Below are positions 1-22,142 of a DNA stretch of 22,142 nucleotides, piece by piece. Both the position numbers and the translations under genes were made by a program. The stretch covers positions 1 through 22,142 of the IMG/VR virus record IMGVR_UViG_3300011114_000547; one strand, written 5' to 3'. The DNA is from a virus. Numbering within the stretch: position 1 is the first letter of the stretch; each line of letters begins with the position of its first letter. Below the pieces are notes generated by a model. The model saw nothing but the letters and a program-made list of their open reading frames with translations. It was not told the origin of the DNA and did not search any database.

Positions 1-3000
1 CGACCGCCGCACTCACGGCTATTACCAATACGCAACTTCTGACTTGCCAGAGCAATCGTTTCCGCGATGCCAGCACAAACAACTTCACGATCACGGCCAA
101 CGGCGATGTCTCCGTCCAGCCCTTCTCTCCCTTCAACCCGACCACGGCGTACTCAGCCAGCAGCATCGGTGGCAGCGGGTACTTTGATGGGAGTGGGGAT
201 TATTTGAGCGCTGGAGTGCAGTCAGCATTTAATCTTGGTACTAGTGACTTTTCGTTTGAAGGTTGGGTTTATCCGTTTGCTGTAGATAAGGCTTGGGTTA
301 GTTGTCATCAAGCTGGTAATGCTGATGGTTGGTATTCATACCTTAATCCTCCGCGTTTAGAAGTATATTCAAATGGTGGTGGTGGCGGTGGAGTGTCCTC
401 TAATGTTACGCCGCCAGTTAATGCTTGGTGTCATATTCTATTTACAAGACAATCAGGCAGATTAAGAGTTTTTGTTAATGGCGTTTTAACAGGAACAACA
501 ACAAATTCGTACACCATAAACCAAGACGGTCGAAATTTTATTATTGGTGCCATTACTAACGGATTAGCGGCAATAAATGCTTACATTAGCAATTTTCGAC
601 TTGTAAACGGTTCTGTTCCTACAGATTATCAAACCAGCGCAACATCTCTCGGAACTCTTGTATTTACACCATCAACATCTCCTTTTACTACGACATCACA
701 AGGCGCAACATCTGGTGACGTAAAATTACTCCTTAATTACACCAACGGAGCCATCTTCGACAACGCTGCTGTGGCCGACTACGAGACTGTGGGCAATGCC
801 CAGATCAGCACCAGCGTGAAGAAGTACGGCACAGGGTCGATGTCGTTTGACGGGACGGGGGATTACTTGGTGACGGACGCGCCGTCTACGGATTTGTTTG
901 CGTTCGGTACTGGCGATTTTACGATTGAGTTCTGGCTGTACTTAAACTCTACATCGGGAACCCCGATAATTTATGACGGTCGCCCGTCCGCGACAAATGG
1001 GGCGCAGCCAACCATTTATATGAATGGGGCCGTGATTACTTATTACACAAATGCCGGAAACAGAATTACTGGTAGTTCGTTGAGCGCATCAACGTGGTAT
1101 CACGTTGCTTTGTGTCGAGTCGCTTCGCAAACCAAAATGTTTGTCAACGGTACGCAAGTTGGAGCGACTTACGCCGACACGACAGCCTACACAAATACGG
1201 CAGGGCGTCCGGTTTACGGCGTGGATGGTAATTCTGGAAACACTAACTATTTCAACGGCTACATCGACGACCTTCGTATCTCCAAGGGCGTAGGCCGCTA
1301 CGCCTACAACTTCACGCCCCCCACGGCTGCGCTGCCTGACATCGGCGGCACAATCACGCTGACTGCCGATCCGTACTACGAGTACACCACGCTGCTGCTG
1401 CCGGGTAACGGGACGAACGGCGCACAGAACAACACGTTCCTCGATAGCAGCACCAACGCCTTCACGATCACCCGCAACGGCAACACGACGCAGGGTACGT
1501 TCTCGCCCTTCTCGCAGACGGGGTGGGGGAACTATTTTGATGGTACGGGCGATTATCTTGAAACGCCAAGCAATGCTGCTTTTACGTTAGGTTCTTCTGG
1601 CGATTTTACTATTGAATGCTGGGTTTACCTTACGGCAACTTCAGGAAATTACGCGGCGTTTTTAACTACTTGGGCAGATGCATTAAGTAACTACACTAAC
1701 AGGTGGTGGGTTGGTACGAACGCGGACGGAATTCTTCGTTGGTATGATAGTTCTGGAAACACCGGAATAGTTGATTCCGTTGTATTAACGCTAAATACGT
1801 GGTTTCACGTTGCTGTTGTAAGAAGTGGATCAACCATCACACTCTACAAGAACGGCACTGCAGTCGGAACTCAAACTACAAACCAAGCGTATACAACGCA
1901 AGGTTCTGTAAAAATGGGGTATTCTGGAACAAATAGCGGTTATTATTTTGGATATATTTCTAATGCCCGAGTAGTCAAAGGCACCGCCGTCTACACGGCT
2001 AACTTCACGCCTCCAACCACTCCGCTCACAGCCATCACCAACACCTCGTTGCTGACCTGTCAGAGCAACCGCTTCATCGACAATAGCACCAACAACTTCA
2101 CAATCACCCGCAACGGTGACGTATCGGTGCAAGCCTTCTCCCCGTTCAACCCCACGGCTTCGTGGAGCGCGGCGACGTATGGCGGCAGCGGGTATTTTGA
2201 TGGGAGTGGGGATTATTTGGTTGGCCCCAACAACGCTGCGTTCAATTTTGGAACAGGCGATTTCTGTGTTGAGTTTTGGATTTATCCAAGCGATTTAACT
2301 TTTAGAATTTATTTATCTTCCGCGGATAACGCCGGTACTCAAATTGGTTATGACCCCGGAAATGGCCCTCGGTATTTGTATTTTTACAATGGATCAAATA
2401 TTTTCAGCGGGCAAACCGCAGGGTTCCTTGCAAATCAATGGAACCATATTGCACTTTGCCGCTCGGGAACAACGCTGTCGATGTATTGCAACGGCACTCG
2501 CGCTTATACAAACGCTGCATATTCTTCTAACATAAGTTTTACAACACCGTATGTTGGTGAATACAACGCGCTTGGATATCCCACACTTGGATACATCAGC
2601 AATTTGAGGTTGGTAAAAGGAGCGTCTGTTTACACGCCGTCATCCTCAACGCTTACTGTTCCGACCGCGCCGCTTACTGCGATTGCTAATACCAGTCTTT
2701 TGTTAAACATGACCAACGCAGGCATCTACGACGCTACGTCCAAGAACGATTTGGAGACGGTCGGCAACGCGCAGATCAGCACGACGCAGAGCAAGTTCGG
2801 CGGCTCATCGATGTACTTCGATGGGACGGGGGATTATTTATATGCTCGAAATAATCAAGACTTAAATCTTGGAACTGGCGATTTTACTTGTGAATGTTGG
2901 GTTTATGTAACATCTTGGTCAAATGCTAATCCGCATTTGTTTGCAAAATGGAATGATGGTGGAAATGGTTATGCATATAAAGGTCGTATTTTAAGTAGTG

Positions 3001-3332
3001 GAGCCTCTTTAAGATTTGGAACCGGAAACAACGGTACTCTAAGTACGGAGTTTGATTTTTCTGGCGCGAATTTAAGTTTGAATACTTGGTATCACATAGC
3101 GTTTACTCGCTACGGCTCATCATTAAAAGCGTTTGTAAACGGTGTGCAAATCGGCAGTACACAAACTACGTCAAACTCTTTAAGTTCAAATAGTGCGTTT
3201 TTGGTTGGCGCAGCATCTGATGGTGGCTTAGATTACATTTTTGGCTACATCGACGACCTCCGCATCACCAAAGGCATCGCCCGTTACACCAGCAACTTCA
3301 CCCCGCCGACCACGGCGTTCCTGACCCTGTAA
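1..3332 (+). CDS. Multi-LamG tail fibre / receptor-binding protein (5' end outside window)
   Basis: The reading frame is open from base 3 with no stop, so the gene continues past the left edge; 1109 codons are visible. A TTG at 204 is not a credible start because the upstream translation is a clear repeat copy. Five concanavalin A/LamG-like jelly-roll modules are visible. Each opens with a FDG(T/S)GDYL strand, followed by a GDF...E.W.Y strand, a W.H(I/V)A..R strand, a NG strand and a closing Y(I)(D/S)(D/N).R(L/I/V).KG strand. They begin near bases 180, 846, 1539, 2190 and 2817. LamG-like modules of this kind bind carbohydrate or surface ligands in other proteins. I infer a tail fibre or virion appendage that contacts host glycans. 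Linkers between modules are GC-rich, while several cores are strongly AT-rich. The product ends at TAA 3330-3332, 8 bases before the next gene. The LamG calls are firm; the fibre role is inferred from phage context. Confidence 0.8.
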   Translation, partial: TAALTAITNTQLLTCQSNRFRDASTNNFTITANGDVSVQPFSPFNPTTAYSASSIGGSGYFDGSGDYLSAGVQSAFNLGTSDFSFEGWVYPFAVDKAWVSCHQAGNADGWYSYLNPPRLEVYSNGGGGGGVSSNVTPPVNAWCHILFTRQSGRLRVFVNGVLTGTTTNSYTINQDGRNFIIGAITNGLAAINAYISNFRLVNGSVPTDYQTSATSLGTLVFTPSTSPFTTTSQGATSGDVKLLLNYTNGAIFDNAAVADYETVGNAQISTSVKKYGTGSMSFDGTGDYLVTDAPSTDLFAFGTGDFTIEFWLYLNSTSGTPIIYDGRPSATNGAQPTIYMNGAVITYYTNAGNRITGSSLSASTWYHVALCRVASQTKMFVNGTQVGATYADTTAYTNTAGRPVYGVDGNSGNTNYFNGYIDDLRISKGVGRYAYNFTPPTAALPDIGGTITLTADPYYEYTTLLLPGNGTNGAQNNTFLDSSTNAFTITRNGNTTQGTFSPFSQTGWGNYFDGTGDYLETPSNAAFTLGSSGDFTIECWVYLTATSGNYAAFLTTWADALSNYTNRWWVGTNADGILRWYDSSGNTGIVDSVVLTLNTWFHVAVVRSGSTITLYKNGTAVGTQTTNQAYTTQGSVKMGYSGTNSGYYFGYISNARVVKGTAVYTANFTPPTTPLTAITNTSLLTCQSNRFIDNSTNNFTITRNGDVSVQAFSPFNPTASWSAATYGGSGYFDGSGDYLVGPNNAAFNFGTGDFCVEFWIYPSDLTFRIYLSSADNAGTQIGYDPGNGPRYLYFYNGSNIFSGQTAGFLANQWNHIALCRSGTTLSMYCNGTRAYTNAAYSSNISFTTPYVGEYNALGYPTLGYISNLRLVKGASVYTPSSSTLTVPTAPLTAIANTSLLLNMTNAGIYDATSKNDLETVGNAQISTTQSKFGGSSMYFDGTGDYLYARNNQDLNLGTGDFTCECWVYVTSWSNANPHLFAKWNDGGNGYAYKGRILSSGASLRFGTGNNGTLSTEFDFSGANLSLNTWYHIAFTRYGSSLKAFVNGVQIGSTQTTSNSLSSNSAFLVGAASDGGLDYIFGYIDDLRITKGIARYTSNFTPPTTAFLTL
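18..206 (+). repeat. LamG linker repeat type 2, copy 1
   Basis: This 63-codon block precedes the first visible LamG core and aligns without gaps to bases 2031-2219; 52 of 63 residues are identical by eye. It includes the shared residues LLTCQSNRF, STNNFTIT, NGDVSVQ and GGSGYFDGSGDYL. A more divergent relative lies before the third module (about 1390-1560). Confidence 0.85.
726..869 (+). repeat. LamG linker repeat type 1, copy 1
   Basis: A 48-codon block before the second LamG core. It aligns without gaps to bases 2697-2840, sharing LLLN, ETVGNAQIST and FDGTGDYL. It is GC-rich (35 of 60 bases in 781-840 are G or C), unlike the flanking core. Confidence 0.8.
2031..2219 (+). repeat. LamG linker repeat type 2, copy 2
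   Basis: Gapless partner of bases 18-206 at 63 codons. It immediately precedes the fourth LamG core. The final 30 or so bases, encoding GGSGYFDGSGDYL, are nearly identical between copies at DNA level, while the cores that follow are clearly different. Confidence 0.85.
2697..2840 (+). repeat. LamG linker repeat type 1, copy 2
   Basis: Gapless 48-codon partner of bases 726-869, preceding the fifth LamG core. The core that follows is AT-rich (20 of 60 bases in 2941-3000 are G or C). Confidence 0.8.
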
Positions 3333-3340
3333 GGTGACAC

Positions 3341-3706
3341 ATGACTTTGTACAGCTTTAAAGGCCACTACCCCGTCGAGCAGATCGACAACAATAAGGGT
3401 TGGTACGAGGTTCCGGCAAAGCCCGAGGCACCGGAAGGCAAGGAAGTCAGGTGGGAGAACGCCGAGTGGGTGGTGCGTGATCCGAAGCCCGAGGATCGTC
3501 CCGGCTACCAATGGAACTGGAACCACGGTGAGATGGCGTGGGTAGAATGCGAGTACCCGCAGACGGCGGAGGTGGTGGAGTCTTCTGAATCTTTAGTCAT
3601 CACGCTGCCCATCGTTGATTCATTTACACTTTCTTCTGGATCTGAACCCATTACGTGGGTGGTTTCAGACTCTGAATCTATTAGCTCTGTAATTTCTGGT
3701 GTTTAA
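3341..3706 (+). CDS. Small tail-fibre-associated protein, function unknown
   Basis: A 121-aa protein starting at ATG 3341, with an AAGGTG ribosome site that overlaps the end of the fibre gene. The first ~80 residues are rich in Trp, Pro and charge (WENAEWV, GYQWNWN), a pattern seen in small proteins encoded beside phage tail fibres, some of which are fibre chaperones. I do not recognise a named family. The last ~40 residues are Ser/Val/Ile-rich, look like short beta strands, and have lower GC than the first part. Position directly after the fibre suggests a fibre tip, accessory or assembly protein. The stop TAA at 3704-3706 overlaps the next ATG by one base. Confidence 0.65.
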   Translation: MTLYSFKGHYPVEQIDNNKGWYEVPAKPEAPEGKEVRWENAEWVVRDPKPEDRPGYQWNWNHGEMAWVECEYPQTAEVVESSESLVITLPIVDSFTLSSGSEPITWVVSDSESISSVISGV

Positions 3707-3930
3707 TGATGGATTTCCAAGTTCTATTTAATATTGCCATTGGAATTGCTGGCGTTTGTGGCGGCTGGATTCTGAATAACATTTCTCGTTCAATCGAAAA
3801 GCTGGACGAGGATGTTCGCAACATGCCGCTGACTTACGTTACGCAAAATCACTTCCAGCGCGATATTGACGAGATCAAATCCATGCTGCGACTCATCTTT
3901 GACCGACTTGAGAACAAGCAAGACAAATGA
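3706..3930 (+). CDS. Small membrane-anchored coiled-coil protein of the lysis cassette
   Basis: A 74-aa protein with one hydrophobic segment at about residues 6-24, then a charged helical region with heptad-like spacing (residues 28-74). The start could be ATG 3706 or the adjacent ATG 3709; both fit the TAATGATG junction. Small proteins with this plan commonly sit beside holin genes in phages and gene transfer agents, and their exact role is unknown. It is translationally linked at both ends: a 1-base overlap with the upstream gene and a 4-base ATGA overlap with the holin candidate. It might be an accessory lysis or inner-membrane protein. It is short for a classical Rz i-spanin, and I see no embedded lipoprotein partner. 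Confidence 0.7.
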   Translation: MMDFQVLFNIAIGIAGVCGGWILNNISRSIEKLDEDVRNMPLTYVTQNHFQRDIDEIKSMLRLIFDRLENKQDK

Positions 3931-4340
3931 GCGAACCAATAGATATTGAACTGTTCAAAGCGCAGGCTCAGGCTGAATTAAATCGGCTTGAAGCTGAGTC
4001 GTCTGCTAAAGACGTTGCCGGTAAAGCCATTGGCAAGGATGGCCTGAAGTACATTACTGCCATCGTTCTCATCGGCGTAGTTGCAAGCCTCTTTCTTGAC
4101 GGCGAAAAAATTGCTGCTGTCATGGGCCTGCTCGGTGCTTCGCTAACCGCCTTGATCTCGATGCTAAACGGCATTGCCGGAACGGTGGAGAAGGAAGACA
4201 AGCCTGAGTTCAAGGTCATTGAAGACCTTATTGCCAAGCTTGACCGGCTTGATCGCAAAGAGATGCCGATGCGCGTAGACGTTGAGGGCGATCATGTGAC
4301 CGTCACCAAGGGCGACGATGTGGTGAGGGCTTCCAAATGA
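3927..4340 (+). CDS. Putative holin (two membrane segments)
   Basis: A 137-aa protein. The N-terminus (residues 1-38) is charged and helical. It is followed by two hydrophobic segments at about residues 42-57 and 61-85 with a short DGEK turn between them, then a charged C-terminal helix and a short beta-like tail (VDVEGDHVTV). Two closely spaced membrane hairpins next to an endolysin gene fit a holin, which would form inner-membrane lesions that release the lysozyme. ATG 3927 overlaps the upstream TGA (ATGA), implying coupled translation. The call rests on topology and position only; the next gene is a second holin candidate, so which one forms the pore is unclear. Confidence 0.6.
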   Translation: MSEPIDIELFKAQAQAELNRLEAESSAKDVAGKAIGKDGLKYITAIVLIGVVASLFLDGEKIAAVMGLLGASLTALISMLNGIAGTVEKEDKPEFKVIEDLIAKLDRLDRKEMPMRVDVEGDHVTVTKGDDVVRASK

Positions 4341-4825
4341 TGACAATGGTTAGCACTTTCTTGTCGTTTCTCGCAGGCGGTCTCCCAAAGATCTTGACGT
4401 TGTTCCAAGACCGGCAAGACAAGAAGCACGAGATTGCAATCCTTCAAATGCAGAAGGAGCGTGAGCTGGAAATGCTGGCCAAGGGCTATCAGGCTCAAGC
4501 GCAGATTGAAGAGATTAAGACCGAGCAGATCCAGATTCAGGCGCAGGCCGAAGAGCGCGTGGCCCTCTATCAGCACGACATGAAGATTGGTGAAGGCGCG
4601 AGCCAGTGGGTCATTAACCTTCGGGCATCGGTGCGTCCGGTTGTGACTTACATTTTTGTGCTGGAGCTGGTGGCGCTAAATGTCGCAGGGCTTTGGTACG
4701 CATGGAACCAAGGTACGCCTTTTGCGCTCGCTATGGAAAACGTCTTTAGCGATGATGAAATGCTTATTCTGAGCAGCATCGTGGCATTTTGGTTTGGGAC
4801 GCAGGCGTTTGGCCGCAAGTCGTGA
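4337..4825 (+). CDS. Holin-like coiled-coil membrane protein (GTA 3TM holin-like)
   Basis: A 162-aa protein. Residues 5-23 are hydrophobic or amphipathic. Residues 24-85 form a long Gln/Glu/Lys-rich coiled coil. Two further hydrophobic segments follow at about 101-123 and 142-156. The pattern RASVRP followed by a membrane segment and a final ML..S...F.FG..A helix resembles the 'holin of 3TMs, for gene-transfer release' family as I recall it. It probably acts in the inner membrane at lysis. The start ATG overlaps the upstream TGA (ATGA), and its own TGA overlaps the GTG start of the lysozyme (GTGA), so the cassette reads as one coupled unit. Family assignment is moderate; the membrane topology is clear. 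Confidence 0.6.
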   Translation: MMTMVSTFLSFLAGGLPKILTLFQDRQDKKHEIAILQMQKERELEMLAKGYQAQAQIEEIKTEQIQIQAQAEERVALYQHDMKIGEGASQWVINLRASVRPVVTYIFVLELVALNVAGLWYAWNQGTPFALAMENVFSDDEMLILSSIVAFWFGTQAFGRKS

Positions 4826-5301
4826 AGACGAGTCCTGAAGCCATCAAACTCATAAAACACCATGAAGGCGTCCGGCTCAAGCCTTACCGTTGTCCGGCGC
4901 TTTTGTGGACGGTTGGCGTGGGCCATGTCATAGACCCAGCGCATGCAAAGGTGCCCTTTGAAGAAAGGCGCAATTTACCGATACCCGATGGCTGGAACCG
5001 TGTCCTCGGCATGGACGAGGTGGACGCTATTCTGGCTAAAGACCTTGGCCGGTTTGAGCGCGGCGTGGCCCGATATTGCCCTTCTGCTCTTGATAGCCAA
5101 GGCCGCTTCGATGCTCTGGTTTCCTTCAGTTTCAACGTCGGCCTCGGCAATTTGCAACGCTCTGGGCTGCGGATGAAGACCAACCGGGGTGAGTTTGAAG
5201 AGGCGGCTGAGGAGTTTATGAAATGGACCAAGGCCGGGGGGCGGGTGCTTCCGGGGCTGGTCAAGCGGCGTTTGGATGAGCAGAGACTATACTTGTCGTA
5301 A
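4822..5301 (+). CDS. Endolysin, GH24 (T4-type) lysozyme
   Basis: A 159-aa muramidase that would cut the MurNAc-GlcNAc bond of peptidoglycan at lysis. The start is GTG 4822, overlapping the upstream stop as GTGA; a longer reading from TTG 4789 is less likely. The N-terminal motif HHEGVRLKPY..P..LWTVGVGH gives the GH24 triad E15, C24 and T30 with E-8-C-5-T spacing. This is the Cys version of the E-8-D-5-T triad of T4 lysozyme. Further family marks are the RFDALVSFSFNVGLGNL helix and the LPGLVKRR segment near the C-terminus, where T4-like enzymes have G..RR..E. Length is typical. There is no signal peptide or SAR segment, so release should depend on the holin candidates upstream. Confidence 0.92.
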   Translation: MKTSPEAIKLIKHHEGVRLKPYRCPALLWTVGVGHVIDPAHAKVPFEERRNLPIPDGWNRVLGMDEVDAILAKDLGRFERGVARYCPSALDSQGRFDALVSFSFNVGLGNLQRSGLRMKTNRGEFEEAAEEFMKWTKAGGRVLPGLVKRRLDEQRLYLS

Positions 5302-5303
5302 GT

Positions 5304-5312
5304 TGTTATAAT
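5304..5312 (+). promoter_or_regulatory. Candidate extended -10 promoter for the structural operon
   Basis: TGTTATAAT (TGn plus a perfect TATAAT at 5307-5312) begins three bases after the lysozyme stop, in the longest gap of the plus-strand operon. No good -35 hexamer is visible at 16-18 bases upstream, which extended -10 promoters can tolerate. Transcription would start near 5319, just ahead of a hairpin and the adaptor ribosome site. Seen by eye only. Confidence 0.4.
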
Positions 5313-5324
5313 CGCGCCCAAATA

Positions 5325-5346
5325 GTCTTGCCCCGACTGGTAAGAC
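5325..5346 (+). other. RNA hairpin in the adaptor-gene leader
   Basis: GTCTTGCC pairs with GGTAAGAC (8 bp including one G-T wobble) around the 6-base loop CCGACT. No T-run follows, so it is not a standard terminator. It would sit close to the 5' end of a transcript from the candidate promoter and about 8 bases before the AGGAG ribosome site. It could be a stability or processing element. Confidence 0.5.
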
Positions 5347-5366
5347 GCGGGACTTAGGAGATTGAT

Positions 5367-6014
5367 ATGCCTGCGTCAATGACATTTACCAGTTTGCAGT
5401 CGGACATCCGCAACTACCTTGAGCGCGGCGGGGCGACCGACCCTATTGTCTATGAGCAGATTCCCCGGCTGATTACGCTGGCGGAACGCCGGATTGCGCG
5501 TGAGCTGAAGATTCAGGGCTTCCAGCGGGTGGTCAATACGACCATGCAGTCTGGGGTGGCGGTGTACCCGAAGCCCGACCGGTGGCGCGACACAATCAGC
5601 ATCAACATTGGCACCGGGGCTAACAACAACACCCACACGCCAGTCTTTGCTCGGTCCTACGAGTACATCCGGCAGTACTGGCCGAATGAGACCCAGACTG
5701 ATCAGCCGGAGTTTTACGCGGATTACAACTACAACTTCTGGATCTTCGGGCCGACTCCGGATGCCGACTATCCGATGGAAGTGCTCTATTACGAACTGCC
5801 GCCGCTTTTGGACGAAGTGACGCAGACTAACTGGCTGTCTGAGTACGCGCCCAATCTGCTCCTATACGGGTCGCTGGTTGAGGCTACGCCTTTTGTAAAA
5901 GATGACCAGCGGGTGCAGTTGTGGCAGTCCTACTATGACCGCTCATTGGCCGCGCTCAATGGCGAGGATCTTCAGAAGATCGTTGACCGGTCTGTGAATC
6001 GCCGGGAGGCTTAA
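5367..6014 (+). CDS. Head-to-tail adaptor protein (SU10/P22 gp4-like)
   Basis: A 215-aa protein starting at ATG 5367 behind a good AGGAG site. The opening pattern (TF.SL..DIRNYLERG, then V.EQIPRLI.LAERRIARELK) is the helical start of the phage adaptor family that sits under the portal ring in podoviruses such as SU10. The middle is beta-rich (WRDTISINI, RSYEYIRQYWP, NFWIFGPTPD, MEVLYYELPP), and a C-terminal helical bundle follows (LLLYGSLVEATPFVKDD..VQLWQSYYDRSLAALNGED). The product would connect the portal to the tail nozzle in the virion. The adjacent tail and nozzle-like genes fit. I recognise the family pattern with fair confidence; the portal gene itself is not in the window. Confidence 0.8.
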   Translation: MPASMTFTSLQSDIRNYLERGGATDPIVYEQIPRLITLAERRIARELKIQGFQRVVNTTMQSGVAVYPKPDRWRDTISINIGTGANNNTHTPVFARSYEYIRQYWPNETQTDQPEFYADYNYNFWIFGPTPDADYPMEVLYYELPPLLDEVTQTNWLSEYAPNLLLYGSLVEATPFVKDDQRVQLWQSYYDRSLAALNGEDLQKIVDRSVNRREA

Positions 6015-6017
6015 ACC

Positions 6018-7211
6018 GTGACTACTTATACGAATACTTTCGGCGGGACGAACATTTACCCCAGCGATGTATCTTATCGCTATGTCTCGCTGACCATTGA
6101 TCAGGCGCTGGACTGGCCGCTTGAGACGGCTCCGACGAATGATGTGGTCGCGTCCATCATGGACGTTAATGCCACGACGACGAGCCTTGTCATCACGATG
6201 CCGGATGCGACCGAAGCCGGTACTGGGCAGACGGTATTGTTTAACAACGTCGGCTCCAACACGTTTACCGTTAAGACCAGTACTGGCACTCAAATCTGTG
6301 CACCGACTTCGGGCAGCACTTTTCAGATCTACCTGACTGACAACAGCACGGCTTCGGGCACTTGGCGTTCGTTTCAGTACGGTGCGTCTGCCTCTGCAAG
6401 CAATGCTGCCAGTTTGGCAGGCCTTGGTCTTAAAGCTATTGCAACGACGCTTAACCAGTCGATTGAAGTTTCTTCCTTTAGCAGCAACTACACGGCGGGG
6501 GTCAGCGACCGATCCAAGGCATTTATCTGGACGGGTGGTGCGGGGACTCTTTCTCTGACCGCAGCGCCTACGCTTGGCAACGATTGGTTTGTGCAGATTC
6601 GCAATGGCGGTACGGGCGATCTGACGATTGATCCGAGTAGCTCGGAAAACATCAACGGCGCGACTACGCTTACGCTTTCGCCCGGAGACTCCTGCATCAT
6701 CGTAACGGATGGCGTGCAGTTCTGGACGATTGGCTTTGGTCAGTCTGCGGTATACGCCTTCAGCGTGCTTCAGATTGATATTGCAGGCAGCGGTAACTAC
6801 ACGCTCACGGTATCGGAACTTAACAAAACCGCTTACATCTTTACTGGGCTTTTGACTGGTAATCGCGACATCATTGTTCCGACGACTGCCCAGCAGTACT
6901 GGATTAGCAATCAGACAACCGGTTCTTACACGCTGGGCATCAAGACGGCTGCGCAGTCTCCGGCAGTCACCGTTGCTCAAGGCGCACGGGCTATTCTGTA
7001 CTGCGATGGCACTAACGTGGTGGACGCAGATACGGCAACGATTGCCATCCCGGTAACCGTGGCTCAGGGTGGTACAGGAGCAACCACGGCATCGGGCGCT
7101 AGAACAAACCTTGGCGCTACGACAGTAGGCGATGCGGTATTCACTGCGGCTAGCACTACGGCTGCGCAAATTGCGCTTGGACTTGATCCGATTCAGGGCG
7201 GCACGTACTGA
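6018..7211 (+). CDS. Beta-repeat tail protein / short tail fibre
   Basis: A 397-aa protein starting at GTG 6018 with GGGAGG 8 bases before it. It contains three loosely repeated beta units of about 80-120 residues, each a run of short strands ending in a hydrophobic '(F/C)xIxxTDG' or 'AILYCDGT' turn (about residues 80-120, 175-240 and 295-340). Near the C-terminus is VAQGGTGATTASGARTNLG, a motif very common in phage tail fibres and collars just before a terminal domain. Here only about 30 residues follow it. No signal peptide or membrane segment is seen. The stop TGA overlaps the next ATG by one base (TGATG). A tail fibre or tail-tip spike component is most likely; the receptor is unknown. 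Confidence 0.7.
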   Translation: MTTYTNTFGGTNIYPSDVSYRYVSLTIDQALDWPLETAPTNDVVASIMDVNATTTSLVITMPDATEAGTGQTVLFNNVGSNTFTVKTSTGTQICAPTSGSTFQIYLTDNSTASGTWRSFQYGASASASNAASLAGLGLKAIATTLNQSIEVSSFSSNYTAGVSDRSKAFIWTGGAGTLSLTAAPTLGNDWFVQIRNGGTGDLTIDPSSSENINGATTLTLSPGDSCIIVTDGVQFWTIGFGQSAVYAFSVLQIDIAGSGNYTLTVSELNKTAYIFTGLLTGNRDIIVPTTAQQYWISNQTTGSYTLGIKTAAQSPAVTVAQGARAILYCDGTNVVDADTATIAIPVTVAQGGTGATTASGARTNLGATTVGDAVFTAASTTAAQIALGLDPIQGGTY

Positions 7212-8821
7212 TGCCTTTGCAGCCGATCATCATTCGTCCGCAACCCGGTATCAAACGGGACGGTACGAAGTTTGAGGGCAACTTTTACGTTGACGGACAA
7301 TGGGTCCGTTTTCAGCGCGGGCTTCCTCGAAAGATAGGCGGTTTTCGTGCACTTCAAGATCGGTTGGACGGCATTGCGCGTGGCATGCACGTTCACAATC
7401 ATAATGGATATACCTATGTCCATATTGGGACGCAGGACGGTGTATTTCGATTTCGCCTGAGTCAAAACGGACTGAGCAGCATTGTGACCAACCGCACCAA
7501 CGGCGGGTACGTCAGCAATAGCAATGCCAACTGGATGTTTGATGTGGCGTTTAACACCACAACAAGCCAGAACGAAATCTTGGCGCATGTGGCTGGCGAC
7601 ATTGAAGACATTTCTTCAGATGCTAACGGCGCGTTGTATCGCGGATACGACAACGGCACGGCTCCGCTTGATCTAGTGTCAGCCGTCACGGTCTCTGGCG
7701 GTATCGTTGCCTTAGCGCCGTATGTCTTTGCGTATGGCTCTGATGGTTTTGTGCAGTGGAGTCGCGCGGGATATACGGATGACTGGTCTGGCGGCGATGC
7801 CGGATCTGCGCGAGTTACAAGCCAGAAGATCGTCAAAGGACTACCGCTTCGCGCGGGCGCGGGCAATGCACCGTCTGGTCTTTTCTGGTCGCTGGATTCC
7901 GTAGTTCGCGCTACGTATGTGGGCGGCGCTGCCGTCTTTAATTTCGACACCATTACCTCGCAGTCAAGCATTCTCCCTGGGAAGAGTGTGATTGAGTACG
8001 ATGGTTTGTACTTCTGGTGCGGCGTTGACCGCTTCTTGATGTTCAACGGTGTTGTACGCGAAGTGCCCAACCAGCTTAATCTGAACTGGTTCTACGACAA
8101 TCTAAACTACGCACAGCGGCAGAAAGTCTTTGCGTTTAAGGTGCCGCGTTGGGGCGAAATCTGGTGGTGTTACCCGCGTGGCAGCGCGACCGAATGCACG
8201 CATGCGGTGATTTACAACGTGCGCGAAGAAACGTGGTACGACACTGAACTTCCGAACGGCGGTCGCTCTGCGGGCATGTATGCGCAGGTCTTTAACTCGC
8301 CGCTCGTGATTGGTGTCATTGATACCGAAACCACGCAATATCGTGGCGTACAAAACACCGAACTGCGCATTACGGAAGATGGCAATCCGCGCATCATCAA
8401 CGACCCCAAGGGCTACGTGGTGTGGCAGCACGAGTACGGTACTGATGAGATTAACGGTGATCAGATTCGCCCGGTGCAGTCGTACTTTGAGACGGCAGAC
8501 ATGTCGCTGATTGCTTCCGAAAACCCGCAGAACATGGCGATCCGAGTGGAGTATCTGGAGCCGGACTTTGTGCAGGCAGGCAACATGACCGTACAGGTTA
8601 CCGGTCGCGCCAACGCCAAGTCAGCCGAAGTCACGAGCGATCCGCAGACCATTTACGCTACGCCCACCGAGAAGCAGCAGCAGTTGGTGTACTTCCGCGA
8701 GATTCGTCGCGAGTTGCGCTTCCGGTTTGAGAGCAACACCCTGAATGGTAACTACCAGATGGGTCAGGTCATTGCGCACATTGAACCAGCGACCGGTACG
8801 ATCTTGGGAGAGAACCCATGA
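7211..8821 (+). CDS. Tail nozzle / hub protein, beta-propeller-like (P22 gp10-like)
   Basis: A 536-aa, beta-rich protein. It begins with a segment (GNFYVDGQWVRFQRGLPRKIGG) of the kind that starts many podovirus tail hub proteins. Repeated blade-like strands rich in aromatic residues and Gly follow, for example YTYVHIGTQDGVFRF, VFAYGSDGFVQWS, LYFWCGVDRFLMFNGV, and WGEIWWCYPRG. The C-terminal part (about residues 400-530) is a second beta domain with FREIRRELRFRFES. P22 gp10 and the nozzles of T7 and SU10 are beta-propellers that extend the tail below the adaptor. Gene order directly after the adaptor and a tail protein supports the same job. The homology is judged from pattern and position. 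Confidence 0.65.
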   Translation: MPLQPIIIRPQPGIKRDGTKFEGNFYVDGQWVRFQRGLPRKIGGFRALQDRLDGIARGMHVHNHNGYTYVHIGTQDGVFRFRLSQNGLSSIVTNRTNGGYVSNSNANWMFDVAFNTTTSQNEILAHVAGDIEDISSDANGALYRGYDNGTAPLDLVSAVTVSGGIVALAPYVFAYGSDGFVQWSRAGYTDDWSGGDAGSARVTSQKIVKGLPLRAGAGNAPSGLFWSLDSVVRATYVGGAAVFNFDTITSQSSILPGKSVIEYDGLYFWCGVDRFLMFNGVVREVPNQLNLNWFYDNLNYAQRQKVFAFKVPRWGEIWWCYPRGSATECTHAVIYNVREETWYDTELPNGGRSAGMYAQVFNSPLVIGVIDTETTQYRGVQNTELRITEDGNPRIINDPKGYVVWQHEYGTDEINGDQIRPVQSYFETADMSLIASENPQNMAIRVEYLEPDFVQAGNMTVQVTGRANAKSAEVTSDPQTIYATPTEKQQQLVYFREIRRELRFRFESNTLNGNYQMGQVIAHIEPATGTILGENP

Positions 8822-9054
8822 CGCACCGTATCGTAGACCCGCGTGGCATAGACTTGCAGTACTGGGCAGATACGCTTTGCTTGGACTTGGATGACTATGC
8901 TGTCATTCCGCAGCTCTATGACCCGGATCGCTGGCAAGACTGGGCTGCGGGACTTGTCGGTATCAACGGTATTTCGCAACTCAATCCGCCGTCGCCTTAC
9001 CAGTTCAATGACTGGCGCGAGTGGGCACTTCGCTTTTATCAAATGTTGGACTAG
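8818..9054 (+). CDS. Conserved small phage protein, function unknown
   Basis: A 78-aa acidic protein (about 12 Asp residues) with paired Trp motifs, DRWQDWAAGLVG and FNDWREWALRFYQML, around a Pro-rich middle (NPPSPYQF). No Cys pair, membrane segment or signal peptide. ATG 8818 overlaps the upstream TGA as ATGA, so translation is probably coupled to the nozzle-like protein. Small acidic proteins with this W..W pattern are familiar from the tail region of short-tailed phages, but I know no assigned role. A structural accessory or assembly factor is the simplest guess. Confidence 0.7.
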   Translation: MTHRIVDPRGIDLQYWADTLCLDLDDYAVIPQLYDPDRWQDWAAGLVGINGISQLNPPSPYQFNDWREWALRFYQMLD

Positions 9055-9061
9055 GTGAACC

Positions 9062-11434
9062 ATGGCCAATTACTACACCTACGGTGAAACGCCGGACCCC
9101 AAAGAGGCTGTCTACGGACCTCTTTCGCAAGGCTTCGCTGATGGCGGCGAGGTGGACGAAGATCGCTTTTATGTGCCGCGAGAAGACTTTGTTCCAATCA
9201 TTCCGGAAGAGAGTTATCCAGAAGACATTCCGTATGAGGAGTCGGCTCCGATACCTCCGGCTCTTAGCAGCTTTGATGCTGGCCAGAAAGCGATGGCATT
9301 GGCTTCGCTGATTGATCCGACATTGCTTAAAGGCTTTGGCGTTGGCGATGCCGCATTTGGTGGCGCTGGGACTAGTGGCGCTGCTGTTCCTGATTATTTC
9401 CGAGCCGTGGCTCCGGGTACAGTAGGCGGTCAAGGCGCTTTGTACGAAGAAGGCGCTTTGGAGGCGGCTAAGAAAGCCGCAGTTGATCCCACTCAAGGGC
9501 TATTCAAATCTGGCTTTGAAGCGTTGGCCGGTCAGCCGGGAATTGAAGAAGCCATCAAGGCAAAGTCTGAACGCGATCTTGGCGCGCTTGCCAAGGTGGA
9601 ATCTGACTATGATGTGATGAAGCCGATTAGCGATCTGCTAAAGGCAAACAATTTTGAGCAAGCATTTGACGTTGCCAAAGAGAAGGGCGTCGTAGACAAG
9701 ATGATGAGCCCCGGTTGGCTTCAGCAGTTGCGTCAGCCGTTTACTCCGGAAGAAATGAAAGCTTTCTACAAAGCTATTCCGCCGGACTATCGTGGTTCAG
9801 ATTTTAAATTTGATCCAAATCGCGGGCAAATTTCTGAAAACGGGTATCCTGAGCCGCTGTCGGCATTTAAGTACGAACAGCCACTCACCGCTATTGACGC
9901 CATCATTCGTCTTGGTGGAGCGGCGGTCTTAGGTGCAGGCGCATTGTCCGCATTGGGCGGCGCTGGTGCTGCGGGTGGGGCTGGCGCTGCTGGCGGGGCT
10001 GGGGCTGGCGGAGCAGGGGCGGCTGGCGCAGGTGCCGCCGGAGCAGGGGCTGCTGGTGCCGCTGGCGCTGCGGGAGCGGCTGGTGCTGGCGGAGCATTAG
10101 CAGCAAGTGCTCTTCCTGAAATTGTTATTACTGCAACAAAACTTGGGTTAACAATTCCACAAGCTGCTGCTTTGATTGGAGCGACTGGAGCAACGATTGG
10201 TGGATTAAGTGGAGCGGGAGCTGCGCCTGTTAGTGCGCCCCCAACGCCGTCAGCACCAACAACTCCAGAGCCTCCCATTGAGGAAATTGTTGTTAGAGGA
10301 ACAGCACCAACTACTCCTCCTCTTGGTGGCGTTGTTGCGCCTGTTGCTGGAGCACTTCCGGGCACTCAGCCCGCTGCTCCTCAAGAGCCTACGGTGCCTG
10401 AAGAGCCAACTGCTCCGGAAGAACCAACAACCCCAGAAGAACCGCCTACCGAGGAGGTAGTAGTTACAGGAACAAAACCTGTTACGCCTCCTCTTGGTGG
10501 CGTTGTTGCTGGAACTGTTGGAGCTGGAGCAGTCGCTGGCGGTGCGCCTACAGAGCCTCCAATGGAGGAAGTGGTTGTTGAAGGAACTAGACCTACTAAG
10601 CCAGATGTTGTCGTTCCTCCAGTAGTTCCGCCGACTACGGGACCTGTTGATGCTGGTGTTCCAGAAGAACCTCCAATGGAGGAAGTGGTTGTTGAAGGAA
10701 CTAGACCAACCAAACCTGATGTAACAGTTCCGCCAGTTATTGTTCCTCCGGGTACGGTGACGCCTCCTGAACCTACAAAGCCAGAAGAGCCTCCCTCAGA
10801 TAAAAAACCGGATGAAAAGAAGCCGGAAGAAAAGAATCCGCTTCAGGCTTTGATCGACAAGTACGGCACGCTTGAAAACTTCCTAAAGATTTTGGGAGCT
10901 TTGGGCGCGGCAGGATCAAAAACTCCTACGGCTCCGGTAACCACTCCAACGGTGCCGAGCATGGGCGGCGCGTTGCCGAAGTACACCTACACCCGGCAGC
11001 AGTTGCGCCCGGACATTGACTACTACACCTACGGCACCCGACCGGAGGCCAAGTTTTTTGAGCAGGGCTTGCAGTTGGAAAAGCCGGTTCAACCGCCTCC
11101 GCCAGCAGACGTTAACCCGCCGGATGAGAACAAACCTATGGCCTATGGCGGCTTGACCGGCTACTCCCATGGCGGTAGTCACAGTTCGCGGTACGTGGAC
11201 GGCCCCGGCTCCGGTCGAGATGACAAGATCCCGGCATTGCTCAGCGATGGGGAGTACGTAATTGACGCTGAGACCTTGGCGCTGTTGGGAGACGGCTCGA
11301 CCAAGGAGGGGGCGAAGAGACTTGACGAGTTCCGTGCTAATATCCGCAGGCACAAGGGTCAGGCCCTCTCGCGTGGCCAAATTAGTCCGAACGCTAAGTC
11401 GCCCGAAAAGTACATGGGCGGAGGGTTGACCTAA
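9062..11434 (+). CDS. Large low-complexity virion protein with Ala/Gly tract and TonB-box-like repeats
   Basis: A 790-aa protein starting at ATG 9062 after an AGGTGA site. Order of regions: an acidic N-terminal segment with YYTYG (4-8) and FADGGEVDEDRF; a helical region (about 70-280); an Ala/Gly-only tract (about 285-349); a Pro/Glu-rich stretch carrying five copies of a (E/P)E(I/V)V(V/I)xxT motif (residues 353, 407, 464, 502 and 540); a Lys/Pro linker; a second YYTYG (654-658); and a C-terminal domain with YVDGPGSGRDDKIPALLSDG followed by EYVIDAETLALLGDGS. That last domain recurs in large proteins of many uncultured phages. Position at the head of the ejection-protein block suggests an internal or injected virion protein. 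Its TAA overlaps the next ATG (TAATG). Function is not established. Confidence 0.75.
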   Translation: MANYYTYGETPDPKEAVYGPLSQGFADGGEVDEDRFYVPREDFVPIIPEESYPEDIPYEESAPIPPALSSFDAGQKAMALASLIDPTLLKGFGVGDAAFGGAGTSGAAVPDYFRAVAPGTVGGQGALYEEGALEAAKKAAVDPTQGLFKSGFEALAGQPGIEEAIKAKSERDLGALAKVESDYDVMKPISDLLKANNFEQAFDVAKEKGVVDKMMSPGWLQQLRQPFTPEEMKAFYKAIPPDYRGSDFKFDPNRGQISENGYPEPLSAFKYEQPLTAIDAIIRLGGAAVLGAGALSALGGAGAAGGAGAAGGAGAGGAGAAGAGAAGAGAAGAAGAAGAAGAGGALAASALPEIVITATKLGLTIPQAAALIGATGATIGGLSGAGAAPVSAPPTPSAPTTPEPPIEEIVVRGTAPTTPPLGGVVAPVAGALPGTQPAAPQEPTVPEEPTAPEEPTTPEEPPTEEVVVTGTKPVTPPLGGVVAGTVGAGAVAGGAPTEPPMEEVVVEGTRPTKPDVVVPPVVPPTTGPVDAGVPEEPPMEEVVVEGTRPTKPDVTVPPVIVPPGTVTPPEPTKPEEPPSDKKPDEKKPEEKNPLQALIDKYGTLENFLKILGALGAAGSKTPTAPVTTPTVPSMGGALPKYTYTRQQLRPDIDYYTYGTRPEAKFFEQGLQLEKPVQPPPPADVNPPDENKPMAYGGLTGYSHGGSHSSRYVDGPGSGRDDKIPALLSDGEYVIDAETLALLGDGSTKEGAKRLDEFRANIRRHKGQALSRGQISPNAKSPEKYMGGGLT
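9914..10108 (+). repeat. Ala/Gly codon tract
   Basis: About 65 codons almost all Ala or Gly, with small tandem units such as GAGAAG and GAAGAAGAA. It is GC-rich and imperfectly repetitive at DNA level, so probably prone to slippage. It encodes a small-residue hydrophobic segment that could insert in or pack against a membrane. Confidence 0.85.
10118..10705 (+). repeat. Five TonB-box-like motif repeats in a Pro/Glu-rich linker
   Basis: Motifs read EIVITATK (10118), EEIVVRGT (10280), EEVVVTGTK (10451), EEVVVEGTR (10565) and EEVVVEGTR (10679). Spacing is 54, 57, 38 and 38 residues. They are separated by PTTPEEPP-type linkers, and two copies are followed shortly by PPLGGVVA. Confidence 0.8.
10556..10593 (+). 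repeat. 38-bp exact direct repeat, copy 1
   Basis: A 38-base stretch encoding PPMEEVVVEGTRP that recurs without mismatch at 10670-10707. The copies start 114 bases (38 codons) apart, in frame. Confidence 0.85.
10670..10707 (+). repeat. 38-bp exact direct repeat, copy 2
   Basis: Second copy of the 38-base repeat. Codons diverge right after it (CCT ACT AAG versus CCA ACC AAA) while the residues PTKPDV stay the same, so the duplication is not brand new or is under selection. Confidence 0.85.
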
Positions 11435-17544: not shown

Positions 17545-18529
17545 AGAATTCAAGTTTGTATGGGAATCTTGTAGGGGAGACGCCAAAAAGGTAGCAGAGC
17601 GATCAGGGATTACTCTCAGACAGGTTTACAACCGGCGGCGATACCTTGAGGGCAAGTATTCGATTAGCTTGAAGGCTAAGACTAGACCCGCTGGCAATTA
17701 CGACAACAGCGAAAAAATAAAAACAGCAGAGCGTTTGGATAAGCTGGCTGAAACGCGACAAAATCGTTATGAAAAAGAAATGGGCATCAACGTCAAGAAC
17801 GGCGTGGTGCTCGTGGGCTCAGATGCACACTACTGGCCCTTAATCGTCTCTAAGGCGCACGAAGCTTTTTGCAAGTTAGCTAAAGAGCTTAGTCCATCTA
17901 TTGTCGTTCTGAATGGCGACATTTTGGACGGCGCTCGGATCAGCCGTCACCCGCGAAACCTATGGGAAAAGCAGCCGTCGCTTAAAGACGAGTTGGCAGC
18001 GGTTCAGGACCGTTGTGCTGAGATTGAGCGTGCTGCTCCAAAGGCTGCGTTGATACGAACGATTGGTAACCACGACGCTCGTTTTGAGCGGTATCTGTGC
18101 GAGAACGCGCCAGAGCTGGAAGAGATGAGCGGGTCTACTTTGCTTGACTATCTTCCACGCTGGCGGGCTGGATGGACCGTTCACATCAATGCGCAGACAG
18201 AGGGGTGGACCGTTATACGGCATCGGCCTGTATCGGGTGGCATTCATTCAGCCTATAACAGCGTATTGAAGTCCGGCGTGAACTACGTGCATGGTCACCT
18301 TCATAAGCTGGAACACAAGCCATGGGGCGATTACCGTGGCCGTCACTGGGGCATTGACTGTGGGACGCTGGCTGATCCCAAAGGACCACAGTTCAACTAC
18401 ACCGAAGCAGGGCCGCTCAATTGGGGCAGCGGGTTCTACGTGCTGACTTACAGAGACGGGCTGATGCTGCCACCAGAGCCGTGCATTATTGAGCACGAAC
18501 GAGCGTGGTTCCGGGGCAAAGAAGTCTAG
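17522..18529 (+). CDS. Helix-turn-helix plus metallophosphoesterase protein
   Basis: A 335-aa protein starting at GTG 17522 behind AAAGGTG, inside the end of the preceding gene. Residues 20-45 (DAKKVAERSGITLRQVYNRR) form a likely DNA-binding helix-turn-helix, followed by a charged linker. Residues ~94-290 are a calcineurin-like phosphoesterase with every core metal motif: D101-A-H103, GD133, GNHD 182-185, H234 (possible) and GHLH 258-261. Family members hydrolyse phosphomonoesters or diesters, including nucleic acids (SbcD/Mre11) and phosphoproteins. The HTH suggests the substrate or site is DNA, but this is inference. It is the last gene of the plus-strand operon. Its TAG stop shares the CTAG with the stop of the opposing gene. 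The phosphoesterase call is firm; the substrate is unknown. Confidence 0.85.
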   Translation: MPQILTDEEFKFVWESCRGDAKKVAERSGITLRQVYNRRRYLEGKYSISLKAKTRPAGNYDNSEKIKTAERLDKLAETRQNRYEKEMGINVKNGVVLVGSDAHYWPLIVSKAHEAFCKLAKELSPSIVVLNGDILDGARISRHPRNLWEKQPSLKDELAAVQDRCAEIERAAPKAALIRTIGNHDARFERYLCENAPELEEMSGSTLLDYLPRWRAGWTVHINAQTEGWTVIRHRPVSGGIHSAYNSVLKSGVNYVHGHLHKLEHKPWGDYRGRHWGIDCGTLADPKGPQFNYTEAGPLNWGSGFYVLTYRDGLMLPPEPCIIEHERAWFRGKEV

Positions 18530-18870
18530 GGAAACCGGACCCCTTCAGTATCCACGCGCTGGTTCTGGAGTGAGTCTACGTAAGCCGTAACGATGGCTTC
18601 GATGAATTGATCAAACTGATCTGGCCTGAACTCCAGAAAGTTATAAGTCCCGCTGGCTTCGATGAACATCCCGGCAGCGGCAGAGGCTTCGTTGAGAGCG
18701 ATCTTCTCGTTGGGTGACTTGTCGATCATGTAGTTATCCATGCACTTGATGGAACAAAACTCGGCTTTTGCACGCTTATGTCCCCGTTCGGGAATGTACA
18801 AAAAGCCCCTCGCCTGCCTCCGGCATATCGCGCAGGAACCGAAAGCCGACAATCTCCGTATACTTGCCAT
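18526..18870 (-). CDS. Small zinc-binding phage protein (possibly DUF6511-type)
   Basis: A 114-aa protein. C13-x2-C16 and C39-x3-C43 form a likely zinc site in the first 45 residues; the rest is helical (NEASAAAGMFIEASGTYNFL, FDQFIEAIVTAYVDSLQNQ). ATG 18870 lies 95 bases inside the helicase gene in another frame, with AAGG about 9 bases before it. A later start at M44 would delete all four cysteines, so the long overlap is favoured. It ends the minus-strand replication operon. I associate this architecture with a phage domain of unknown function (DUF6511), but am not certain. Role unknown; it may bind nucleic acid or assist the helicase. Confidence 0.7.
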   Translation of the reverse strand: MASIRRLSAFGSCAICRRQARGFLYIPERGHKRAKAEFCSIKCMDNYMIDKSPNEKIALNEASAAAGMFIEASGTYNFLEFRPDQFDQFIEAIVTAYVDSLQNQRVDTEGVRFP

Positions 18871-20413
18871 TCTTTTGAACCTTAATCTCGACGGGCTTCA
18901 GTAGCGTATTACTTGTTTTGATCGCCTCTTCGGTGGACTTCGGAATGCTTCCGGGGCCAATCATGCGCTGCGCCCACCACTTGACCGCCTTGTCACGCGG
19001 ATATCCCTTGTGCTCGAAACACACCCACTCCCGAAAGACTGCTAGCCCGGAGCGGTACTCGACCCGCATGCTGACCGGGCTTCCGGGCTTAACGTGTTGC
19101 CTGTACGCAACAGCATTGACCGGCACCCACTGCGAGGGGATAGCCGCGCTCATTACCGGCAGCGTGGTCGCCGTAGACTCAATCTCAGGCTCTCTCGGTG
19201 GCCAGACGTAGCCACAGTCGGGGCATTCGGACGACCCCGCAAAGACGATGCTCTGACACTCCGGGCAGGTTTTAGTCGGCGCTACGCCTTCTCCGTCGCT
19301 CTGGCGGGGCTTCTTGGGGTTAACCCGGTCCACGGGGCCGTGACGCGCAATGTTGCCCGCAAAGTCGAGCACCAGACAGTCATCCTTGCCCGGATGGTTG
19401 CGCATGCCTCGACCCATGATCTGTATATACAAACCGGTTGACTGGGTCGGGCGTAGGATGGCCAACAGGTCTACCGCTGGGGCGTTGAACCCGGTGGTCA
19501 GTACGCCCATGGAGGCAATCGCTCGGATCTTGCCAGCCTTGAAGTCACCGATAATCTTGTCGCGCTCGGTACGAGCCGTGTCGCCAAAGATGGTCGCGCA
19601 GTCGATGCCGTGGGCTTTGATCAGGTCAGCTATGTGGGTTGCGTGGGCAACGCCAGAGCAGAAGATTAGCCACGAGCGGCGATCCTTCCCGTACTCCAAA
19701 ATCTCTTTGACCGCAGCTTCGTTAATGTCGTCGCGATCTACTGCGCGTTCCAGCTCACCCTGAATGTACTCGCCACCTCGGGTGCCGACGCCTTCCACCT
19801 TGAGTCGCGTCTTTGGCTGTTTGGACACCAGCTTCGTCAAATACCCGTCGCGCACCATGTCCGAAAGCGGGGCCTCGTAAGAGACGGCATCGAACAGCGC
19901 GTCCTTACCGCTATAGAGCACCCCAGAGTCGAGTCGATACGGCGTGGCCGTAAGCCCTATGACGCGCAAGTGAGGGTTCATCACCTTAAGGTTGCTCAGA
20001 AACTTTTGATACATCGTGTTCGTCTTGCGCGGAATTAGGTGGGCCTCGTCCACGAGCACAAGGTCTACCTTCACAAACTTCGACGCTTTGCGGTGCACGG
20101 ACTGTATCCCGCAGAACACAATCGACGGGTCGTAGTCGCGCTTATTTAAGCCAGCCGAATTGATGCCAGCCGGGGCTTCGGGCCAGATTGTTTTGAGCTC
20201 ATCGTAGTTTTGCTTAATAAGTTCACGAACGTGCGTGACGATTAAGATTTTCGTATCAGGCCACTGCTGCAAAATCTGACGGCAAAACTCCGCAATGACA
20301 ATGCTTTTGCCGGTGCCTGTAGGGAGCACGATCAGCGGGTTCCCGTCATTCTCGCCTAAGTAACGCAGCGTAGCTTCGATGGATTCGTTTTGATATGGGC
20401 GTAGTGTAATCAC
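18776..20413 (-). CDS. Superfamily II DEAH helicase with zinc ribbon (RadD/SSL2-like)
   Basis: A 545-aa protein. The start is GTG 20413, overlapping the upstream TGA (GTGA). Motifs in order: Q-like RPYQNE (5-10), Walker A PTGTGKS (31-37), IVTHVRELI (Ia), DEAH (122-125), TAT (155-157), a second RecA-like fold with VLTTGFNAP (304-312) and QIMGRGMR (331-338, motif VI). After it comes a zinc ribbon C383-x2-C386-x10-C397-x2-C400 and a C-terminal domain with repeated W residues. E. coli RadD has the same helicase-then-zinc-finger plan and acts in recombination repair. This protein probably unwinds or remodels DNA during phage replication or recombination with the SSB-like and nuclease neighbours. 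Its last 31 codons are shared with the next gene in another frame. Confidence 0.88.
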   Translation of the reverse strand: MITLRPYQNESIEATLRYLGENDGNPLIVLPTGTGKSIVIAEFCRQILQQWPDTKILIVTHVRELIKQNYDELKTIWPEAPAGINSAGLNKRDYDPSIVFCGIQSVHRKASKFVKVDLVLVDEAHLIPRKTNTMYQKFLSNLKVMNPHLRVIGLTATPYRLDSGVLYSGKDALFDAVSYEAPLSDMVRDGYLTKLVSKQPKTRLKVEGVGTRGGEYIQGELERAVDRDDINEAAVKEILEYGKDRRSWLIFCSGVAHATHIADLIKAHGIDCATIFGDTARTERDKIIGDFKAGKIRAIASMGVLTTGFNAPAVDLLAILRPTQSTGLYIQIMGRGMRNHPGKDDCLVLDFAGNIARHGPVDRVNPKKPRQSDGEGVAPTKTCPECQSIVFAGSSECPDCGYVWPPREPEIESTATTLPVMSAAIPSQWVPVNAVAYRQHVKPGSPVSMRVEYRSGLAVFREWVCFEHKGYPRDKAVKWWAQRMIGPGSIPKSTEEAIKTSNTLLKPVEIKVQKNGKYTEIVGFRFLRDMPEAGEGLFVHSRTGT

Positions 20414-20610
20414 GAGTTAAGTTCTGGTTTGGGTAAGTGTGAAAGGATTTTCATTGCAATGGCTTTGACTCTTATGAGCTCAACCATGTTTTCAGACATC
20501 ACCATGGCGTAACCATACAGATCAAGGCTCTTTAGAATTATCAGCATGTCTTCGTCTGTCAGAGTGAACTCTGCAATCGCTTCCTCTTCTATTTCGCCGT
20601 GTTGATCCAT
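20410..20610 (-). CDS. Small acidic protein between nuclease and helicase, function unknown
   Basis: A 66-aa protein. I choose ATG 20610 (MDQHGEIEEEA), which has GGGGGA about 9 bases upstream, over a TTG at 20643 with no good site. The N-terminus is acidic (EIEEEAIAEFTLTDED); the rest is a likely helical hairpin with many Met and Leu (MLIILKSLDLYGYAMVMSEN, then MVELIRVKAIAMKILSHL). It overlaps the nuclease gene by 22 bases and the helicase by 4 bases, so all three are probably translated together. There is no Cys or DNA-binding motif. It may be an adaptor or regulator of the nuclease or helicase, which is inference from position only. Confidence 0.65.
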   Translation of the reverse strand: MDQHGEIEEEAIAEFTLTDEDMLIILKSLDLYGYAMVMSENMVELIRVKAIAMKILSHLPKPELNS

Positions 20611-22118: not shown

Positions 22119-22142
22119 TTTATTACTCTCCAACGATGTTGT

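Follow-up and report, generated by a model that had tools for sequence, protein, structure and literature searches.

The stretch of DNA analyzed here (the window) is a viral record of 22,142 bases, IMG/VR record IMGVR_UViG_3300011114_000547, whose first 3332 bases form the 3' part of a gene encoding a fibre-like protein of repeated laminin G (LamG) lectin modules, matched by Laminin_G_3 at 300.6 bits against a Pfam cut-off of 27.6. The gene is truncated at the window start; a complete copy in the collected locus L002 (L002:379-4401, 1340 amino acids), which agrees with the window at 99.99% over 12.2 kb, corrects the five modules first assigned to it to six. Three types of GC-rich conserved block (gamma, alpha, and beta) occur in the order gamma-alpha-beta twice in this gene, with variable cores and connectors between them. 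In the following list, block identities are from blastn comparison with locus L003 unless another locus is named, and GC3 denotes GC content at third codon positions.

3-3332, plus strand: LamG fibre-like gene, 3' part with five of six modules (Laminin_G_3 E=3e-90, five stretches).
24-206, plus strand: alpha block of slot 2 (TNTQLLTCQSNRF...YFDGSGDYL), coordinates placed by eye; 84% over the surrounding 240 nucleotides.
207-725, plus strand: cassette 2, AT-rich core 2 and connector; GC 0.40, GC3 0.23; no blastn match in L003.
726-869, plus strand: beta block of slot 3 (LLLNYTNG...ETVGNAQIST...FDGTGDYL); 88%.
870-1367, plus strand: cassette 3, core 3 and connector; GC 0.50, GC3 0.52; 81% over 90 nucleotides.
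1368-1559, plus strand: gamma block of slot 4 (DPYYEYTTLLLPGNGTNGAQNNTF...YFDGTGDYL); 91% over the surrounding 305 nucleotides.
1560-2039, plus strand: cassette 4, core 4 and connector; GC3 0.34; no match in L003.
2040-2219, plus strand: alpha block of slot 5 (TNTSLLTCQSNRFIDNSTN...YFDGSGDYL); 88% over the surrounding 261 nucleotides.
2220-2696, plus strand: cassette 5, core 5 and connector; GC3 0.39; no match in L003.
2697-2840, plus strand: beta block of slot 6 (LLLNMTNAGIYDATSKNDLETVGNAQIST...YFDGTGDYL); 92% to L003, 95% to L005, and 96% to L010.
2841-3242, plus strand: core 6; GC 0.38, GC3 0.26; no match in L003.
3243-3332, plus strand: closing block of the LamG gene; 98%.

Base composition swings markedly within this one reading frame. 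The six counts on which the original prediction was built (35, 37, 19, 20, 22, and 20 G or C in 60) proved exact, and in 60-nucleotide windows GC3 ranges from 0.05 to 0.5 in cores and from 0.6 to 0.95 in the intervening linkers. GC variance between such windows is 27.4, compared with a maximum of 17.0 in 5000 shuffles that preserved both the gene's own codons and its protein sequence (none reached the observed value), and for GC3 the variance of 0.060 likewise exceeds anything in the shuffles, which peak at 0.022. Conserved amino-acid composition, raised at the outset as an explanation that would undo the claim, is ruled out as the source of the swing by the shuffles and by its small contribution to 60-nucleotide GC (r2=0.06). 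The raw swing alone is not unique, because among six other long genes the repetitive one at 9062-11434 shows a similar raw variance (30.0; GC3 variance 0.038). That gene, whose local GC variance is strong, encodes a 790-amino-acid protein with Gly/Ala-rich stretches and repeats of E-E-V-V-V-x-G-T-x-P but without a Pfam match. The cores are also unlike one another, as had been proposed: GC3 of cores 1-6 is 0.45, 0.23, 0.52, 0.34, 0.39, and 0.26, and in the L002 gene heterogeneity is significant for cores (p=4e-7) and not for linkers (p=0.95). The further proposal that linkers match the rest of the phage stands for total GC; in GC3 they are higher (0.75 vs 0.55 in L002; 68 of 71 non-redundant loci were kept for this comparison).

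The blocks are conserved and the cores are not. Between L002 and L003, linkers are 84-98% identical and five of six cores lack a blastn match, core 3 being the sole one with a partial match, while nucleotide identity in six neighbouring genes is 68-81%; identity at four-fold degenerate sites is 0.74 in blocks and 0.36-0.51 in those neighbours. The L003 fibre is of almost equal length (1355 amino acids). Since the two phages resemble each other more in the blocks than in their backbone genes, the blocks have a history separate from the backbone, and cores diverging at the rate of linkers, which would have spoken against the original prediction, were not seen in this comparison. Across 247 loci with any match, some of them from the same phage, approximately 120 share DNA at 75% or more per 60-nucleotide bin in blocks (~110-120 per bin for the gamma block of slot 4) and near zero do so in most core bins; bin GC correlates with the number of sharing loci (rho 0.59). 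The GC-rich blocks are the most conserved DNA in the region compared. The same blocks are present in phages with adaptor or stabilization proteins only 22-32% identical to those of the window: L006 (adaptor 30%), L167 (adaptor 27%, stabilization protein 23%), L170 (adaptor 32% over 79 residues, stabilization protein 24%), and phage DSL-LC04 (stabilization protein 22%), the last of which matches the closing block at 89.5% over 76 bp (3259-3334). L005, L010, and L180 gave no match to the adaptor and stabilization genes, perhaps only because their available stretch ends early; in L165, L167, and L170 two lysis-region genes are 75-79% identical to the window's in amino acids.

For genes with three or more units in loci L002-L239, the three commonest motif strings are 'gab' (64), '?ab' (18), and 'gabgab' (14); domain-model units were chosen from matches of a first model, one of whose seeds spanned two modules. 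With that first model, L037 has 14 and 13 domain matches in two adjoining reading frames of one 172-kb contig. At L180:7155-11132 two overlapping reading frames, each in a different frame, together encode the fibre, a split that seems to stem from a frameshift or from faulty assembly.

Each slot has block DNA of its own. In seven genes of six modules, blocks of the same slot are 85% identical in nucleotides between phages, and blocks of the same type from the other triplet are 69% identical, between genes and within genes alike; blocks of other type within one gene are 52% identical (11 genes) and cores 51-52%. Four-fold site identity is 0.72 for the same slot and 0.41 for the other triplet, where codon use alone predicts 0.38, and is near saturation in cores (0.35). 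As the other-triplet value is close to the codon-use expectation, the six blocks are old paralogues that are no longer synonymously alike, each slot still being common to several phages. The longest exact match for the same slot between phages has a median of 36 nucleotides (at least 23 in 87% of 126 comparisons), compared with 15 between slot i and slot i+3 within a gene (19% at 23 or more) and 9 between cores (2% at 23 or more). De Paepe (2014, PMC3945230) gives minimal pairing lengths of 31-34 bp with RecA and 23-27 bp with Red-beta. Same-slot exact matches are therefore long enough for recombination between phages, whereas those within one gene seldom are.

When loci L002-L239 were all compared with one another, 119 gene pairs from different loci, including repeat records of one contig, shared at least one core at 80% identity or more; 60 of these pairs are collinear and 59 are mosaic or too short to judge. 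Only a single core is shared by L165 and L170 (core 5), by L006 and L170 (core 2), and by L023 and DSL-LC04 (core 3), and single cores 93-100% identical adjoin unrelated cores in other genes. The match of core 2 of L005 to core 5 of L006 is a move between slots of the same block type; a second cross-slot pair, L174/L237, is typed by a loose motif only and is less trusted. Among 21 shared cores of loci L002-L239, all 16 with both linkers motif-typed have linkers of the same type (five untyped cores were excluded), a result weaker than its p value implies because in-place inheritance, with no movement, would also preserve the type of a core. In 293 LamG reading frames, segments at least 93% identical have 44 non-redundant ends, of which 31 fall in blocks and 7 in connectors; 4 are in cores and the remaining 2 lie elsewhere. 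Only three are at least 30 nucleotides inside a core, where 43% would be expected (p=1e-7). The ends are scattered along blocks and connectors and do not gather at a single site. Because isolated near-identical cores adjoin unrelated ones and segment ends avoid core interiors, cores appear to be exchanged as cassettes at linker boundaries, one at a time, among related and nearly unrelated phages. The original proposal that cores are spliced at the same boundaries between resident linkers is thus borne out by the conserved linkers, the sharing of single cores, and the scarcity of ends within cores.

The position of the blocks relative to the protein fold was examined in an AlphaFold2 model covering a single module and its flanks, computed from a 79-sequence alignment (mean predicted local distance difference test score, pLDDT, 71.5; predicted template modelling score 0.66); residues 259-291, with pLDDT under 50, were left uninterpreted. 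In the model a YFDGSG strand ends the block, the variable core lies within the jelly roll, and a GYISNLR strand opens the connector; further short strands inside the block are of low confidence. As the YFDGSG strand lies within the block, the 'linkers' are in part the start of each lectin domain, and the term is a loose one for what are predicted to be conserved blocks holding the first lectin-fold strand or strands together with the inter-domain connector. Foldseek returned concanavalin A-like jelly rolls, e.g., arabinanase domain 5hon and laminin LG modules (query-normalized TM 0.33-0.45), as well as jelly-roll domains of clostridial neurotoxin-complex proteins, which indicate fold class only. 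Among PHROG families, 'baseplate wedge subunit' and 'virion structural protein' are matched, and adaptor and tail-fibre genes lie nearby; the protein may belong to the virion tail and is a putative receptor-binding fibre. Core swaps may then alter what the phage binds and offer a possible route to changed host recognition.

Taken together, these observations make it likely that the gene is a six-slot scaffold in which homologous recombination in matching blocks replaces the cores between them. Each slot would consist of a conserved GC-rich block bearing the first lectin strand or strands, a variable core, and a connector to the next block, with the block of each slot having its own DNA sequence. 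When two phages carrying the scaffold co-infect one cell, two matching blocks would pair by homologous recombination, probably through phage or host enzymes, and the intervening core or cores would be replaced in frame and in register. Several observations weigh against this. Three of the 44 segment ends do fall inside cores. No recent donor was found for any core of the window, the best relatives being 74-75% identical in amino acids (core 5), in a search that used dedicated scans for four of the six cores and, for cores 1 and 3, the collected loci only. ERF was absent from 8 related records and RecT from 10. Nearly all data are metagenome assemblies, and some swap boundaries contain exact matches of 100-260 nucleotides that could mislead an assembler.

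The origin of the cores is a separate matter, and here an intrinsic explanation of the GC swing, in which cores of any source lean toward AT because codon selection is weak or mutation is AT-biased, is a serious contender, if somewhat short of an even chance; it is compatible with swapping and competes only with the step that invokes AT-rich donors. Of 305 surveyed loci with units, 229 were non-redundant; 25 of these had too few codons and were dropped, and in 189 of the 204 kept, block GC3 exceeded core GC3. Core GC3 lies below its own phage's expectation by 0.13 on average, a deficit that persists where typed motifs are absent (-0.11, n=51), as an intrinsic bias would have it, and that runs from -0.005 at backbone GC3 below 0.25 to -0.28 above 0.6. 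Block GC3 is above expectation by 0.085 in loci with all three typed motifs (n=57) and by 0.005 in those with none (n=51). Against a purely intrinsic bias, cores of one gene differ in GC3, as in L002, with heterogeneity at p<0.05 for cores in 36% and for linkers in 9% of 179 gene sets, and core GC3 tracks that of the phage with a slope of only 0.45. The closest relatives of the window's cores are L044 for core 3 (74% in amino acids), L012 for core 4 (66%; locus GC 0.42), and L375 for core 5 (75%; locus GC 0.45), with 36% for core 2 and 47% for core 6; two of the six (cores 4 and 5) thus have their closest relative in an AT-richer contig. The phage collection yielded one 76-bp nucleotide match only. 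The claim that cores derive from AT-rich sources consequently stands in part: the relatives of cores 4 and 5 and the differing GC3 favour it, and the lack of a near-identical donor and the general AT shift of cores do not. A shared, AT-leaning core pool is compatible with the composition data, most of which a general AT bias of cores accommodates too, and the AT-rich cores may record a pool of different source from the scaffold. Two AT-rich contigs, L056 and L027 (backbone GC3 0.17 and 0.20), carry GC-rich LamG blocks (0.61 and 0.67) and cores of raised GC3 (0.43 and 0.37); their LamG genes look as though they came from a GC-rich phage.

The gene next to the LamG gene is as follows.

3341-3706, plus strand: 121-amino-acid gene, the 5' part of which travels with the scaffold; its DNA match to L003 reaches 3577 (89%).

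The first 76-81 residues of its product are 90-91% identical in L006, L166, L167, and L170. An Rfam search of positions 1-3500 returned no known RNA element at E up to 0.1. The closest backbone relative of the window, L082, is 93% identical to it in DNA over 3703-9099 and has different genes to the left of 3703, where its contig starts: at L082:1-715 a partial 2OG-Fe(II) oxygenase-like gene and an unrelated 136-amino-acid gene replace the LamG and 121-amino-acid genes. LamG was found in one of seven backbone-relative records. The fibre locus as a whole thus moves as well. Such movement, with L082 lacking LamG in its covered stretch, is what would be expected if the scaffold gene were transferred as a unit and its cores then diverged fast by point mutation under diversifying selection. 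This is improbable as a replacement for core exchange, because four-fold sites are near saturation in cores (0.35) and not in same-slot blocks (0.72), and because cores 97-100% identical adjoin cores with no match.

Chimeric assembly of metagenome reads, with joins at the conserved blocks, also seems an improbable source of the mosaics, and exact block matches of up to 236-261 nucleotides in some pairs lend the idea some weight. Exact matches are, however, merely 11-60 nucleotides at the boundaries of L005/L006, L006/L170 (upstream), L022/L051, L073/L179, and L023/DSL-LC04; L170 and L195, from different metagenomes, have the same cores 1-4, and L050/L051 and L071/L072 likewise agree across metagenomes; and the window and L002 agree at 99.99%. 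DSL-LC04 was deposited as a complete genome, and chimerism leaves the slot-specific divergence of blocks unexplained. Independent-assembly counts for L003, L004, and L015 are inflated, since more than one locus of a single contig is included in them. Dependence on metagenome assemblies is the main weakness of the case for block-mediated core exchange, and it is answered only partly by the repeated assemblies and the short matches at boundaries. Shuffling of the cores by a dedicated system, whether site-specific recombinase, invertase, or diversity-generating retroelement, is very unlikely: repeated modules with near-constant boundaries do resemble shuffled cassettes, but RVT_1, Resolvase, and Phage_integrase were each absent from all eight related records (control genomes were positive; some records are perhaps incomplete) and segment ends spread over blocks and connectors with no single site. 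The original prediction that no reverse-transcriptase diversity element is involved agrees with this result in the eight records, the window's own phage being represented by a 22-kb fragment. The window does hold a cluster of helicase, Cas4-domain exonuclease, and DUF669 genes on the minus strand (18526-22133), each with a possible role in exchange.

18776-20413, minus strand: DNA helicase (phrog_16, ResIII/Helicase_C).
20589-21539, minus strand: Cas4-domain exonuclease (phrog_1990).
21624-22133, minus strand: DUF669 protein.

An AAA_24 ATPase, which we take to be kin to Sak4-type recombinases, is above cut-off in six of seven backbone-relative records.

Block-mediated exchange of cores would explain how a fibre changes one binding module at a time with length, reading frame, and module order kept, and block DNA would let exchange communities of uncultured phages be read. 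A bolder suggestion, which we put forward tentatively and regard as rather doubtful, is that the blocks are slot addresses maintained in the DNA by selection for recombination, that synonymous saturation between the blocks of one gene limits internal deletion, and that nearly unrelated phages keep the six addresses as one exchange community with a common core pool. If so, the GC-rich third positions of blocks would be a by-product of repeated conversion. Selection on recombination addresses themselves becomes a testable question.

Literature searches found no account of a multi-slot scaffold with slot-specific fibre-block DNA. T4-type adhesins have glycine-rich motifs, mutually similar conserved stretches around variable binding segments, from which the present blocks differ in that their synonymous sites are saturated between one slot and another. 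Phage tail fibres and spikes are known to have protein fragments in common with otherwise dissimilar proteins (Smug et al., 2023, PMC10684548); that account, in its available portion, treats mosaicism of receptor-binding proteins at domain level without mention of lectin, laminin, linkers, or breakpoints, whereas here the boundary DNA is slot-specific and repeated six times in one gene. Rad52-like phage recombinases are described as carrying out relaxed homologous recombination that yields mosaics flanked by partly identical DNA, including lambda side tail fibre genes (PMC3945230); in the present case related records have no ERF or RecT match and there are several exchange points per gene. Between distantly related Alteromonas phages of different families a host-recognition module is reported to move, with fibre and chaperone shared as a unit (PMC10579305), whereas here single cores inside the fibre change too. 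The Concanavalin A-like lectin gene of DSL-LC04 (OR003939) resembles the present gene in layout, with six LamG modules of the same block types and a small gene following it, and it differs in its sequence (45% in amino acids over the window's LamG fragment) and in the stabilization protein mentioned above. Exchange of fibre modules at conserved stretches was thus already known, and the slot-specific scaffold is the element that looks new.

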